Part shown: one piece after another, positions 35,341 to 46,340 of the stretch
How the letters are laid out: each line of letters opens with the position of its first letter
Numbering within the stretch: the first letter of the stretch is position 1
Source: Cyanobacteria bacterium SIG26
GTDB taxonomy: Bacteria; Cyanobacteriota; Vampirovibrionia; Gastranaerophilales; Gastranaerophilaceae
Direction: 5' to 3'
Assembly: GCA_015152555.1 (NCBI GenBank)
Contig: SUTS01000012.1
Coordinates: 1 to 64,000, forward strand
DNA length: 64,000 nt
Translations under genes and position numbers: made by a program
Notes under the pieces: model-generated
Told to the model about the DNA's origin: nothing
The model's database searches: none
The model's input: the letters and a program-made list of their open reading frames with translations, nothing else

Positions 35341-35680
35341 TGTGAGTGTAGTATCTTCACCCCATTCTAATCTTCCAATATCCATTCCTGAGGATGACAT
35401 GATGCGTTAGGATGACATGGGAAGGGGTAGGGGTGACACAGTTTATTCCTTCCCTGGATGGGGAAGGTTAGGATGGGGTGATAGGGTCGGTGATATTTAT
35501 AACAAACTTAATAGATCCTTCGCTCCCCTCAGGATGATGAAAGACGGGAAGGTTATTAACATCAATACATTTACCCCCCTCAGGATGATGAAAGAGCGAA
35601 CAGGTGAAAGGGAATCCAAAATTTACCCCTCAGAATGACAAGGGTCGAACAGGGCGGGAAGACATTAATGTATTTACCCC
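35341..35680. repeat. GC-rich intergenic repeat mosaic, copy 1
   Basis: The 426-base gap 35255-35680 holds no convincing gene. From about 35341 it is unusually GC-rich and made of repeated blocks: CCCTCAGGATGATGAAAGA occurs twice (about 35526 and 35578), then CCCCTCAGAATGACAAGGG with GAACAGGGCGGGAAG, plus CCCTGGATGGGGAAGG and GTTAGGATGGGG. Related blocks, inverted, recur at 45930-46340. This looks like nested palindromic repeat DNA rather than coding sequence; the open frame at 35417-35638 is a by-product. Confidence 0.75.
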
Positions 35681-38128
35681 TTATGCGCTTTGGTTGAATT
35701 TGAATGTTCTTTCGATGTTTTTGTTCATAACACCTTTAACTACATCATATTCAGTTTGAAGCGCAGTATGCTCAGTATCAATATTTTTCAATTGCATATC
35801 ATAAGCACTATCTTTAGCTTCGATATCATTCATTGCGCGGGCGTATTCAGCCTCAGCTAGAGCAACAGCAGCTTCGTCAGTCACTTCTGTGATTTTAATA
35901 CAAGTTTTATAACTCAACGGATTCCAGTTGTAAGACTTGTCAACTTGTTCCATAGTCACAATACCTGCTTCAAGCGCATATTCAATCCATTGTTTAGATG
36001 CAGCTAACCCATCTTCTAATGTTTTGTAACCTTTTTGCATTCTTTGGAACAAGTTAGTGTACCATTGAGCTTTAGCATCAGCATCACCGGTATTTTGAGT
36101 ATCGTTAGCGTCAATCCAAGCATACTTAGCTTCGCCATTTTCAGCGATAACACTATTAACGATAGAAACTTTTAATACAGTGTTGTATTTTTCAGTTAAA
36201 TCACCTGTGTTAATAGCTCTATATTCACCATTAGAATCTGCTATCTGACAGTTTTTTAATAAAGTCAACACATAATCAAGATCAGCAAGACCTTCTTCTG
36301 TGATATAGCCATTGCTCAACGCTTTCTCGATTGTGCAAGAATCGTGGTATGTAGCCACAGTACCATCTTCATTAAATGATGCAGGGAATCTGTATTCAGC
36401 ACCAGGGTTATTAAAGATAAATGACATCAAACTTTCTCTAGCCATTTGATAATTCATCATATATTCTACAACGCTAAGTTCACCTTCAGAAGAACCATAC
36501 ATAGCATTTATTGCTCGGCCTAGCGGAGTAGAAGTGTCACCCTGAAGTTCTGCAACAGCTGCTGCATAAGCTGCTAGAGCATCTCTAAAACCATCACTAA
36601 ACATATTGCTCCATGTATACTTTTTACCTTCATATTCCCATTCATGTTTGCTTAGTATTACTGGATCAATAGAACTATCAAGTTGGTTCTCTATATAGGT
36701 AACAAACTCAATAGGGTCGATGTATGATTTGATAATCTCTATAGCTTCAGAATCTAATATGTCCAAAGCATTAGCCCTTGCGTTATCTCCAATATAATAA
36801 GTATCTGTTACAAACTTATAACCAACAACTTCTCCAGACTCGTCTTCTATATCCACTTTTCTGATATGCTCTTCATAACTATCAGCAGAACCTGTATAAT
36901 AACCCAAAATAATCTCTTCTAAAATTTCAGGATATGTATAAGGTGTTGAACCATCAGACTTAGTAGGATTATCAATAGACTCAGAACCGGCTATATTACC
37001 AATATTTGCACTGGTGTAACCATTTAAACGTAAGTTTATTGATTGAACACCTTCCTCTGGATCAGTTGCAGTAACTGTACCTGGCAAGTTTAACTTTGTA
37101 ACTTTCCCTGTAGAATCTACTGTAATTTTCAAATCACTATATATAGTATATATAGTTTTTGTACTATCATCTGGATCTGGATTTGATTGAATCTCAAGAT
37201 CTGAACCTGGAGATTCAATAATCTTAGTTATTTTAGTACCTGATACATCGTAGTATCCATTACCATTATTATAACTAGAAGCATTCGTATCACTATAACT
37301 TTTAAATAATGTATCAAGTTCTTTATACAACGAATGCTTAGATACAGCGGTATGATCAAGATCTGAAATTATTCCTGTCTTTGCTAAGTTGTAAATATTT
37401 ATTGAATAGTCGATAGGATCAGTTGTTGCTGTACCTAAATAAGCTCTCCTCATACTAGCAACATAATCATATTCAGTGGCATCAGTAGTAGCTCCATCAC
37501 CCTTAGTATGAAGACCAGAAGTATAACCACCAATACCACCTGTTGTCAAATACTGTTCAATAGGGTATTGTACTTTAGCATCGAAAGATGCATAAGCTGA
37601 TATGTATTCAGCATAAATATCATCATATTCTTCAAGTTCAGAAGAGTTTTGGTATGCAACCAATTCTTCATACCAAGTTTGTAAAGTTTCTGGTTCGATA
37701 TTGTTATAAGGAACAGGGTAAGATGTTGACAATCCACCTACTTGCTCAAAATAAGTTGTTCCGAAAGTTAACCCTTTTGCTTCTAAAAATTTGTTTACAT
37801 CGCCGTTTGCGTTTTTAAAAGCTTCAGCATCAGCTTCGCTCACTAACAATTGACCTGCTGAGTTTACAAGTCCGTATTGTGTGTTGTATGAGCTGTATGC
37901 TGTTAATGCATTGAATGTCAAAGGTTGCGCCGTAGATACACCTGTTTGATCATAGCTTGTGAACATCATTGTTGCGTTGTTTAACGCATTAATGTAGTCT
38001 TCACTAGCACGTGAGCTTTCAGCAGCCAAGCGCATTTTTGCATTGTTGATTGATTGTGATCTCAATTCGTTATCAGCAAGGCGTGCGGTTAATGTTAATA
38101 ATCTAGCTTGTGATGCTGCCATTCCCAT
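35681..38128 (-). CDS. 815-residue sigma-28-controlled protein with flagellin-like layout
   Basis: Not a recognised family. The first ~50 residues form an amphipathic helix rich in Ala, Arg, Leu and Ser (AASQARLLTLTARLADNELRS, NNAKMRLAAESSRASEDY). The last ~60 are a second long helix (AEYARAMNDIEAKDSAYD, ALQTEYDVVKGVMNKNIERTF). Between them lie ~700 polar, Asp/Ser/Thr/Tyr-rich residues with few cysteines and no signal peptide. Conserved-looking helical ends around a polar middle is how flagellins and other axial flagellar proteins are built. A perfect sigma-28 promoter lies upstream and GAAAGGAAA precedes the ATG. Role as a filament or secreted axial component is an inference. Confidence 0.8.
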   Translation of the reverse strand: MGMAASQARLLTLTARLADNELRSQSINNAKMRLAAESSRASEDYINALNNATMMFTSYDQTGVSTAQPLTFNALTAYSSYNTQYGLVNSAGQLLVSEADAEAFKNANGDVNKFLEAKGLTFGTTYFEQVGGLSTSYPVPYNNIEPETLQTWYEELVAYQNSSELEEYDDIYAEYISAYASFDAKVQYPIEQYLTTGGIGGYTSGLHTKGDGATTDATEYDYVASMRRAYLGTATTDPIDYSINIYNLAKTGIISDLDHTAVSKHSLYKELDTLFKSYSDTNASSYNNGNGYYDVSGTKITKIIESPGSDLEIQSNPDPDDSTKTIYTIYSDLKITVDSTGKVTKLNLPGTVTATDPEEGVQSINLRLNGYTSANIGNIAGSESIDNPTKSDGSTPYTYPEILEEIILGYYTGSADSYEEHIRKVDIEDESGEVVGYKFVTDTYYIGDNARANALDILDSEAIEIIKSYIDPIEFVTYIENQLDSSIDPVILSKHEWEYEGKKYTWSNMFSDGFRDALAAYAAAVAELQGDTSTPLGRAINAMYGSSEGELSVVEYMMNYQMARESLMSFIFNNPGAEYRFPASFNEDGTVATYHDSCTIEKALSNGYITEEGLADLDYVLTLLKNCQIADSNGEYRAINTGDLTEKYNTVLKVSIVNSVIAENGEAKYAWIDANDTQNTGDADAKAQWYTNLFQRMQKGYKTLEDGLAASKQWIEYALEAGIVTMEQVDKSYNWNPLSYKTCIKITEVTDEAAVALAEAEYARAMNDIEAKDSAYDMQLKNIDTEHTALQTEYDVVKGVMNKNIERTFKFNQSA

Positions 38129-38172
38129 AGTTAGCGTTTCCTTTCGAGTTCCTTAATGTTTCCTTATTCTGT

Positions 38173-38199
38173 TTATCGGCATTTTTTCTTAAAACTTTA
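38173..38199 (-). promoter_or_regulatory. Sigma-28 (FliA/SigD) class promoter
   Basis: On the minus strand: TAAAGTTT (38192-38199), 11-base spacer, GCCGATAA (38173-38180). Both boxes and the spacing are identical to the enterobacterial FliA consensus, a 16/16 match. Transcription would start about 35-40 bases before the ATG at 38128. Confidence 0.88.
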
Positions 38200-38340
38200 A
38201 TATTTTGAGGGGGTTTGTTAAGATTTTGTTACAATTGTGTATAGTGACCCAAAAAGTGGGAGGGTTAGGGTCGGGCGTTTACCACACCAACTAGCAAAAA
38301 TTATTTTGCACAAACTTTATAAATAAAAAAAGGAACAATA

Positions 38341-44392: not shown

Positions 44393-45199
44393 ATGAAAAG
44401 TATTTCAATTCAATGTCCGGCAAAAATAAATATGACACTTAAAGTCGTCGGCAAAAGAGATGACGGGTTTCATAATATTGAAAGTATTATGCAAACAATT
44501 GATCTATATGATTATTTATATATCTCGATGATACAATCTGACAGAACAAAGATTTCATTGCGCGGAAATAGTGACACAATCCCTTACGATAAAACAAATT
44601 TGGTATATAAAGCCGCTAAATTATATCTTGATGCAAACGGACTAAAAAACTTCGAATTTGACATCAATATAGAAAAACATATTCCTGTTTCGGCAGGACT
44701 TGCAGGGGGCAGTACAGACGCTGCAGGAACCCTATACGCTCTTAATAAATTTTTTGACAATAGAATGTCTCAAGATGAATTACTAAACTTATGCGCACAA
44801 CTGGGTTCTGACTTAAACTTTTGCCTAATTGGTGGTCGAGCACTGACTAAAGGGCGAGGCGAAATTATTGAGCCTAAAGAACATCGAGAAATCAATATAA
44901 ATTTAATCAAACCTTTGGATATCGGAATTTCAGCAAGAGAAGCTTACACAAGCTTTGCTGAAAAAACTGAGCTCGAAGGTGATAATCGCTTTAACCGCAG
45001 AGACTATGTTAATGATTTAGAATGGGCAATTATAGATAAATATCCAACATTACAACAGATAAAAAAGCAATACAAAACAGCAGTAATGACTGGCTCCGGT
45101 TCCACATATTTTTCAACAAAAGAAGAATTCATACCGGCAGAAGATTTTTGGGTTGAAAACGGACATAAAACCATTCCTTATGGAGTTCAGATGATTTAA
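44393..45199 (+). CDS. ispE: 4-diphosphocytidyl-2-C-methyl-D-erythritol kinase
   Basis: A 268-residue GHMP kinase of the MEP isoprenoid pathway. CPAKINMTLKVVGKRDDGFHN and the ATP loop PVSAGLAGGSTDAAGTLYAL are diagnostic, with MTGSGSTYF near the C-terminus. The start at 44393 has AAGGAG; upstream in-frame ATG at 44333 is inside rsmA. The pairing rsmA-ispE is common. The C-terminus is slightly shorter than usual. It shares 4 bases of stop with the convergent pilin gene. Confidence 0.96.
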   Translation: MKSISIQCPAKINMTLKVVGKRDDGFHNIESIMQTIDLYDYLYISMIQSDRTKISLRGNSDTIPYDKTNLVYKAAKLYLDANGLKNFEFDINIEKHIPVSAGLAGGSTDAAGTLYALNKFFDNRMSQDELLNLCAQLGSDLNFCLIGGRALTKGRGEIIEPKEHREININLIKPLDIGISAREAYTSFAEKTELEGDNRFNRRDYVNDLEWAIIDKYPTLQQIKKQYKTAVMTGSGSTYFSTKEEFIPAEDFWVENGHKTIPYGVQMI

Positions 45200-45990
45200 A
45201 ATTCACGTAAATATTTATACGCACAGCCACTGCCCGTTTTAGTGTACGCACCAAGAGCCCCGTTTTCAGACGCAACATTTTTATCACAACCTTTACCCGG
45301 GTAATCCGGATGCCCTGCCGGAATAATTGTATTATTTCTAAACAACAATATGTAAATATCACGTCCGACAACATTTGGCCCTGAATTTTGCCCATTAACA
45401 TCTATTGTTACCCGAGGATTTTCAGACCTCTTGGCAAATCCCAAATGAGCCCCGTTTTGCAAAATCGCATAACCTGCAAATGACTCATAAAAACAAGTGC
45501 CCCAAGTTTTATCTGTTTCTTTTAGATCAAGCGCCTTACATTTGAAATTCATAGAATAATTCTTATCAACAGTTGAACATGTTTTATCAGGATTATTATC
45601 CAAACAATAAGAACTAAGTTTTAATTGTGAAAGTAAACCCTCATAAAGCTTAAAACAAACATCCAATTTATCTGCTCCATAAGGGGCACCATGAGTTTGT
45701 TTCCCAACATCCCAAGGATTTGGAGTATAAACAGGATCAGGAAATGCCAACCTATAAGCATTTATTATATCCGCATAATTCTTCTTTAACGCAGTTTTAA
45801 ACTGCTTATCTTGAATATTTGTAATCATATTTGGTATCGTCATCGCAGCAACAATTCCGATTACGCCGATTACGATTAATACTTCGACCAGTGTAAACGC
45901 AGCTTTTTTAATAAAAGAGTTATCAAACCCTCTCCTGTCACCGCGGGGGTAAAGATTAGGCACCTTTCCGCCCCGTTCAACCCTCGTCAT
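45196..45990 (-). CDS. Type IV pilin-like protein with start in repeat DNA
   Basis: A prepilin-type protein. KKAAFTLVEVLIVIGVIGIVAAMTIP is the class III signal: cleavage before the Phe, Glu at +5, then the N-terminal assembly helix; the ~230-residue body has cysteines (CFKLYEG, CLDNNPDKTC, CKALD) and resembles pseudopilins of this lineage. The problem is the start: the nearest in-frame ATG (45990) lies 40 residues before the cleavage site and within a GC-rich repeat block, and the frame stays open through repeats to 46191. Other starts (for example rare ATT just before KKAAF) cannot be excluded. Confidence 0.7.
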   Translation of the reverse strand: MTRVERGGKVPNLYPRGDRRGFDNSFIKKAAFTLVEVLIVIGVIGIVAAMTIPNMITNIQDKQFKTALKKNYADIINAYRLAFPDPVYTPNPWDVGKQTHGAPYGADKLDVCFKLYEGLLSQLKLSSYCLDNNPDKTCSTVDKNYSMNFKCKALDLKETDKTWGTCFYESFAGYAILQNGAHLGFAKRSENPRVTIDVNGQNSGPNVVGRDIYILLFRNNTIIPAGHPDYPGKGCDKNVASENGALGAYTKTGSGCAYKYLREF

Positions 45991-46340
45991 TCTGAGGGGA
46001 GGGTAAATATTACTACCAACCGTGGTATAGTTTGTAAAACCAATGTGCTCCGCAGGGGGGGAGGTAAATGCACCCTTCCCTGGACGGTGCAAAATGAACA
46101 GGCGAGGTACGAGCCTTGTGAACTTGTATACCGAGGCGCAGCCAAGTGTTGGAGGGGCTGGGGGTAAAAGTAAAGGGTCTAGGATTTCCACTCTCCTAGG
46201 GAGAGAGTTAGGATGAGGGGGCGATGTAAAAAGTTCTCCGAAACTATGCTCAACTCAAGTCATCCCTTCCGGCTCCGCCACCTTCCCCATCCGGGGCAGG
46301 TAATTCACTTATCATCCCACCAAAACAACCCTCCAAAATC
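45930..46340. repeat. GC-rich intergenic repeat mosaic, copy 2
   Basis: Covers the 5' end of the pilin gene and the gap up to 46383. Blocks match copy 1 in inverted orientation (CCCTCGTCATTCTGAGGGG with CCGCCCCGTTC). Others are CCCTTCCCTGGACGG, CTCCTAGGGAGAG followed by GTTAGGATGAGGGG, and CCTTCCCCATCCGGGG. Locally GC-rich against an AT-rich background. No gene is seen in 46192-46383. Confidence 0.75.

Follow-up and report, generated by a model that had tools for sequence, protein, structure and literature searches.

The 64,000-nucleotide (nt) stretch analyzed here, hereafter the window (positions 1 to 64,000 of contig SUTS01000012.1 from Cyanobacteria bacterium SIG26, order Gastranaerophilales), carries on its minus strand a gene for an 815-residue protein, preceded by an exact copy of the promoter of the flagellar sigma factor sigma-28 (FliA). 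At a probability of about 0.5, we place it among the late genes of the FliA regulon, in a genus that is devoid of flagellin and retains a second, divergent flagellar-type export system, with a product that is an axial-type, exported subunit. Membership of the late regulon is strongly supported by the promoter box, its conservation and the presence of a FliA gene, congruent with the proposal of a preliminary description, made from the letters of the window alone, that this is an unrecognized member. The product is probably a late, sigma-28-dependent substrate of the divergent export system, likely serving as an axial subunit. The features concerned are the following.

35681-38128, minus strand: gene for the 815-residue protein, of an unnamed family here called the SQAR family from its N-terminal MGMAASQAR
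37739-38128, minus strand: N-terminal conserved region, residues 1-130 (a helix at 2-50 followed by strands)
36179-37528, minus strand: hypervariable middle, residues 201-650 (low model quality as far as residue ~540)
35684-36166, minus strand: conserved C-terminal region, residues 655-815 (final helix 752-814, predicted to pair with the N-terminal helix)
38140-38145, minus strand: ribosome binding site GAAAGG, located 11 nt upstream of the start codon, from sequence
38173-38199, minus strand: sigma-28 (FliA) promoter, exact consensus TAAAGTTT-N11-GCCGATAA, from sequence, genome scan and orthologue conservation
38192-38199, minus strand: -35 box
38173-38180, minus strand: -10 box

A conserved sigma-28 promoter

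Read on the minus strand, positions 38199-38173 are TAAAGTTT-TAAGAAAAAAT-GCCGATAA, with no mismatch to the FliA consensus, so that both boxes and the 11-base spacing claimed in the preliminary description are confirmed. The consensus is that of E. coli (TAAAGTTT-n11-GCCGATAA; PMC2859248). By its relatives, the genome is that of an uncultured gut member of Gastranaerophilales. No other site in the window matches with fewer than three mismatches, and the box begins 71 nt upstream of the ATG at 38128.

The genome (1.86 Mb, 21 contigs, cited as C1, C2 and so on) was scanned for the box and for the genes downstream of it, with the chance expectation taken from a first-order Markov model of this DNA (33% GC). 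Three exact copies were observed against 0.004 expected, and nine copies with at most one mismatch against 0.17; most good matches are located 48-83 nt 5' of an ATG with a ribosome site. Two of the nine (C16:63025 and C20:4319) are followed by no convincing gene or by a short one only. The short form TAAAG-N13-15-GCCGW was found 49 times compared to 27 for a reversed control pattern, and this list is therefore partly background. Lack of a FliA-type sigma gene would have spoken against the promoter; instead, one protein, C1:56931-57593, lies above the curated FliA_WhiG cut-off (TIGR02479, 237.6 bits; cut-off 189.6).

The box is equally evident in relatives. Among 28 same-genus orthologues, 27 possess it with up to four mismatches, 20 of them with at most two, at a distance of 64-79 nt from the start. 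Of 79 distinct regions upstream of family genes in public assemblies, 56 contain the short form and 70 a relaxed form, as compared to one and three, respectively, of 288 control open reading frames (ORFs) from the same loci. Within the genome itself six of seven family members carry the box (that at C15:93465 being assigned by position, ahead of C15:93527), and the seventh, C7:120130, has none within 200 nt upstream. Moreover, the box precedes true flagellin genes of flagellated relatives, with one mismatch at 91 nt before the start in genome G040, two at 86 nt in G039, three at 86 nt in G045 and one at 241 nt in G044, which marks it as a genuine sigma-28 promoter within the order. Not every flagellin of the order uses it, since the flagellin genes of genomes of one family (f3) mostly lack a box within 300 nt. 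Matches with three mismatches are common in AT-rich DNA (about 50 expected), which is what a chance match, leaving the gene outside FliA control, would lean on; nevertheless, the enrichment over the Markov expectation and the conservation at a fixed distance in orthologues lead us to reject that reading, which we regard as hardly credible, in line with the initial judgment that coincidence was very unlikely.

A protein family with constant ends and a hypervariable middle

The 815-residue protein matches no Pfam model (E up to 1), no NCBIfam model and no PDB sequence; that it cannot be annotated by family, as stated at the outset, hence holds. The same absent matches, including that to PF00669 (Flagellin_N), give no sign of homology to flagellin, and by sequence the protein is not a flagellin. 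Seven members are encoded in this genome (the window gene, C15:93527, C12:8731, C9:23325, C15:56401-58605, C10:110781 and C7:120130), all with the N-terminus MG(M/L)(A/S)ASQAR and a long charged helix at the C-terminus, and lengths in the family span 318-838 residues. The positions conserved to at least 90% among 20 orthologues comprise 39 of the first 50 and 31 of residues 751-800, but none of the 450 in 201-650. As read from the sequence, such constant ends around a variable middle are a flagellin-type profile, where the ends would polymerize and the middle would be free. Here the family was encountered in Gastranaerophilales/Melainabacteria only, the assemblies being labelled Gastranaerophilales, Melainabacteria, cyanobacteria or uncultured bacteria; two deviating titles, 'Fusobacterium sp.' (L201) and 'Heliobacteriaceae' (L159), are probably mislabelled bins.

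AlphaFold2 models agree with this picture. In a 377-residue homologue (mean predicted local distance difference test score, pLDDT, 86) helices 2-49 and 316-376 flank a mixed body, and in the 815-residue protein (pLDDT 69) helices 2-50 and 752-814 are predicted, with the ends mostly at 77-94 and much of the middle below 50. The models pair one long N-terminal helix with one long C-terminal helix, bearing out what had been noted from the letters, amphipathic helical termini flanking a long polar middle. Together, conservation pattern and predicted structure support an axial-type architecture.

A divergent export system in a genus without flagellin

The export genes that the preliminary description had suggested looking for alongside fliA are present as well:

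C14:86665-92559: FliE, FliF and FliH adjoining FlhA
C14:88733: FliG candidate between FliF and FliH, from position and a weak MgtE_N match
C15:64014: FlhB with NPTH motif
C10:60565-64219: FliO, FliP, FliQ and FliR with a FliM/N protein
C2:3195-5539: FlgF, FlgG, FlgB and FlgC (rod)

FlhB retains the NPTH autocleavage motif, the one used in the late-substrate switch. The export and rod operons tested, as well as fliA, have no box (at least five mismatches), which indicates an early/late split as in the flagellar hierarchy. A profile search for flagellin (PF00669) detected none in the genome, and three matches to LlgE_F_G_D1 (hook/rod D1) were obtained. Considering that the genome holds no flagellin and no conventional flagellum, the suggestion of a flagellin substitute, filament-associated or flagellum-exported protein stands for a substitute or substrate of a flagellum-like system, whereas membership of an ordinary flagellum does not fit.

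We compared 36 genomes of the genus, this one included, with 22 from other families of the order. Flagellin is missing in 35 of the 36, the exception (G014) being 6% contaminated, and present in 21 of the 22. Canonical FlhA (E ~1e-260) occurs beside the divergent form (~1e-215) in 19 of the 22 and in no genome of the genus. Hook/rod D1 domains number three in the genus and mostly six elsewhere, as expected for one system versus two. In flagellated relatives a compact second flagellar operon (L264:1112-14990 and L265:1457-14119) accompanies the canonical flagellum, in the order flgF-flgG-flgB-flgC-x-fliE-fliF-fliG-fliH-flhA-fliI-fliJ-fliK-short flgE (277 residues), with names assigned by eye; a FliI-like ORF following flhA was recognized by reading both sequences. 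A short FlgE-like protein is also found in G032 (L263). The SQAR family itself is detected in 36/36 genus genomes and 19/22 of the others (E 1e-5, single-protein query), often with at least ten matching stretches per same-genus genome. Judging from the distributions of FlhA, flagellin, D1 domains and the family, the divergent export system looks older than the genus and distinct from the flagellum, and appears to have been retained after flagellum loss.

A plausible sequence of events can be outlined. On completion of the basal part, FliA would transcribe the 815-residue gene and its paralogues, and the family proteins would be exported via the FlhA/FlhB gate. Their constant terminal helices may then pack the way those of axial proteins (flagellin, FliD, hook-associated proteins) do, allowing the subunits to polymerize into, cap or decorate an external axial structure, with the hypervariable middle facing host, phage or neighbours. 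More tentatively, and as a possibility we would not favor outright, Gastranaerophilales may build an undescribed extracellular filament or appendage from non-flagellin, antigenically diverse, multi-copy subunits through a second, dedicated, sigma-28-controlled flagellar-type secretion system.

Other genes behind the box and neighbouring features

Genes other than those of the SQAR family also follow a box:

C2:162465 and C12 near 213.5 kb: two LysM proteins
C7:51789-: EF-hand protein
C13:1811-: SprT-like protein
C14:52367-53605: HD-GYP protein, directly behind the box
C17:18463, minus strand: GGDEF protein, directly behind the box (TDELTGLFNRRSF, recognized by eye)

Several small unknown proteins are likewise encoded behind a box. 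The positions of the HD-GYP and GGDEF genes apparently link cyclic-di-GMP signalling to the FliA regulon. Near-alike proteins of 181 and 179 residues (MNISGNLAAQRKVVNLQDTTK...) are encoded on different contigs, at C3:145617 and C15:100132 (both minus strand), behind identical box sequences; their similarity and boxes, with one copy near a contig end, suggest a recent duplication. Three small helical proteins (C1:58645-59163, C3:93275-93847 and C7:122529-122867), with C-termini PNYVGGGR, PNYTGGGQ or SYSVGGR, were rejected as regulon members since they lack a box; the first is near fliA, and they possibly form a second small axial or secreted family.

A 493-residue protein (G000:C2:96140-97621 (L060); L266:8889-10370), the second half of which corresponds to the FlhA cytoplasmic domain (PF00771 positions 309-653) without the membrane part, occurs in almost every genome of the order and, in G041, adjoins FlgD- and FlgE-like hook genes. 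In the window, short intergenic repeats CCCCTCAGGATGATGAAAG occupy 35440-35690, immediately 3' of the 815-residue gene, and the start of a prepilin-like ORF (45196-46191, minus strand) resembles read-through of similar repeats. The neighbouring L,D-transpeptidase and TPR/GT9-like genes were dismissed as a functional clue, as they are not kept beside the orthologues.

Competing explanations

Several observations weigh against an axial subunit exported by the divergent system. VIA-align places flagellin and FliD at Z 7-9 over ~105-117 residues and SMC hinges at Z 10-12, with further coiled coils equal to or above flagellin/FliD and ATP synthase gamma also among the rows; considering this mixture we claim no fold assignment, and the comparison of the termini with axial proteins, for which an unrelated fold had been named as the adverse outcome, yields a compatible fold in a match that is not diagnostic. 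Foldseek of the 377-residue homologue returned nothing below E 0.2. Likewise, hhalign found no match to the flagellins of relatives, or to the short FlgE-like protein, each a weak test owing to small target alignments. In contrast to the flagellins examined here, the protein is acidic, with abundant tyrosine (7.5%) and an almost invariant Cys743. The C-domain of the type III secretion system ATPase (PF18269) was not found in the genome, where FliI could be diverged, and G035, a same-genus genome that is 99% complete, has kept the family with no full-length FlhA match. Finally, export and polymerization of SQAR proteins are inferred.

The same regulon and export system could instead serve secreted effectors or adhesins, the terminal helices then being secretion or chaperone signals. 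The two LysM, the SprT-like and the EF-hand proteins behind boxes, seemingly secreted and with no recognized filament role, fit such a function, as does a multi-copy family of widely differing lengths (318-838 residues) with hypervariable middles. Still, we find it rather unlikely, because both termini are near-invariant and modelled as one paired unit, which exceeds the needs of a secretion signal. A protein that is intracellular or resides in the envelope, under a FliA regulon that was re-used and is unrelated to export, would account for the nearly invariant cysteine, and the HD-GYP (C14:52367) and GGDEF (C17) genes show that the regulon includes cytoplasmic signalling proteins. However, a polymorphic 450-residue middle within constant ends typifies surface proteins, and the family tracks genomes holding the export system, rendering this option improbable.

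That the flagellar-type gene set is a flagellum in ongoing reduction (PMC4040986; Di Rienzi et al. 2013, PMC3787301) agrees with a genome lacking flagellin and an ATPase C-domain match. Yet almost all of the 36 same-genus genomes share the set, other families have the second system alongside a full flagellum (FlhA ~1e-215 beside ~1e-260; the L264/L265 operon) and the late promoters are preserved near consensus, so we consider reduction very unlikely. Late regulation by FliA, with export of an axial-type subunit through the divergent system, remains our preferred reading.

Relation to known systems

If this reading is true, the partial flagellar sets of Melainabacteria from human and animal guts are functional, either in secretion or in building a filament, and come with a sigma factor of their own; common gut bacteria that lack flagellin, the TLR5 ligand, would then display a large family of variable substrates on their surface. 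It would also be an example from nature of flagellar export serving non-flagellin late substrates, in a system that relatives run beside a true flagellum, and bear on the divergence of flagella and secretion systems. In the open-access literature on secretion systems of Gastranaerophilales, Melainabacteria or Vampirovibrionia we found no such system. Earlier work on gut Melainabacteria (MEL.A1 and others) treated their partial sets of flagellar genes as flagella that are incomplete or lost (PMC3787301, PMC4040986). The bacterial group and the kind of gene set are the same as here, with two flhA genes in ACD20; the parts of these reports available to us describe no regulon or replacement substrate.

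The closest likeness for the protein is flagellin FliC (PF00669), with which the SQAR family shares the FliA promoter, constant ends around a hypervariable middle, several copies per genome and, in prediction, paired N- and C-terminal helices. It differs in lacking sequence similarity, in its 318-838 residues, its tyrosine content and conserved cysteine, and in occurring in genomes without flagellin. For the machinery, the injectisome (non-flagellar type III secretion) has a homologous export gate and likewise no flagellin, but the parts described here match flagellar families (FliE, FliF, FliH, FliO, FlgB/C/F/G) and FliA boxes precede the genes of the candidate substrates. Buchnera offers the nearest precedent, with basal bodies that are devoid of flagellin and thought to serve as protein exporters (PMC8109811). 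There too, rod, MS-ring and export gate have been retained and flagellin lost in a host-associated bacterium; here, in contrast, the sigma factor is also kept, together with a large regulon of candidate substrates, and relatives possess the divergent system in addition to a true flagellum, so that it represents more than a stripped flagellum.
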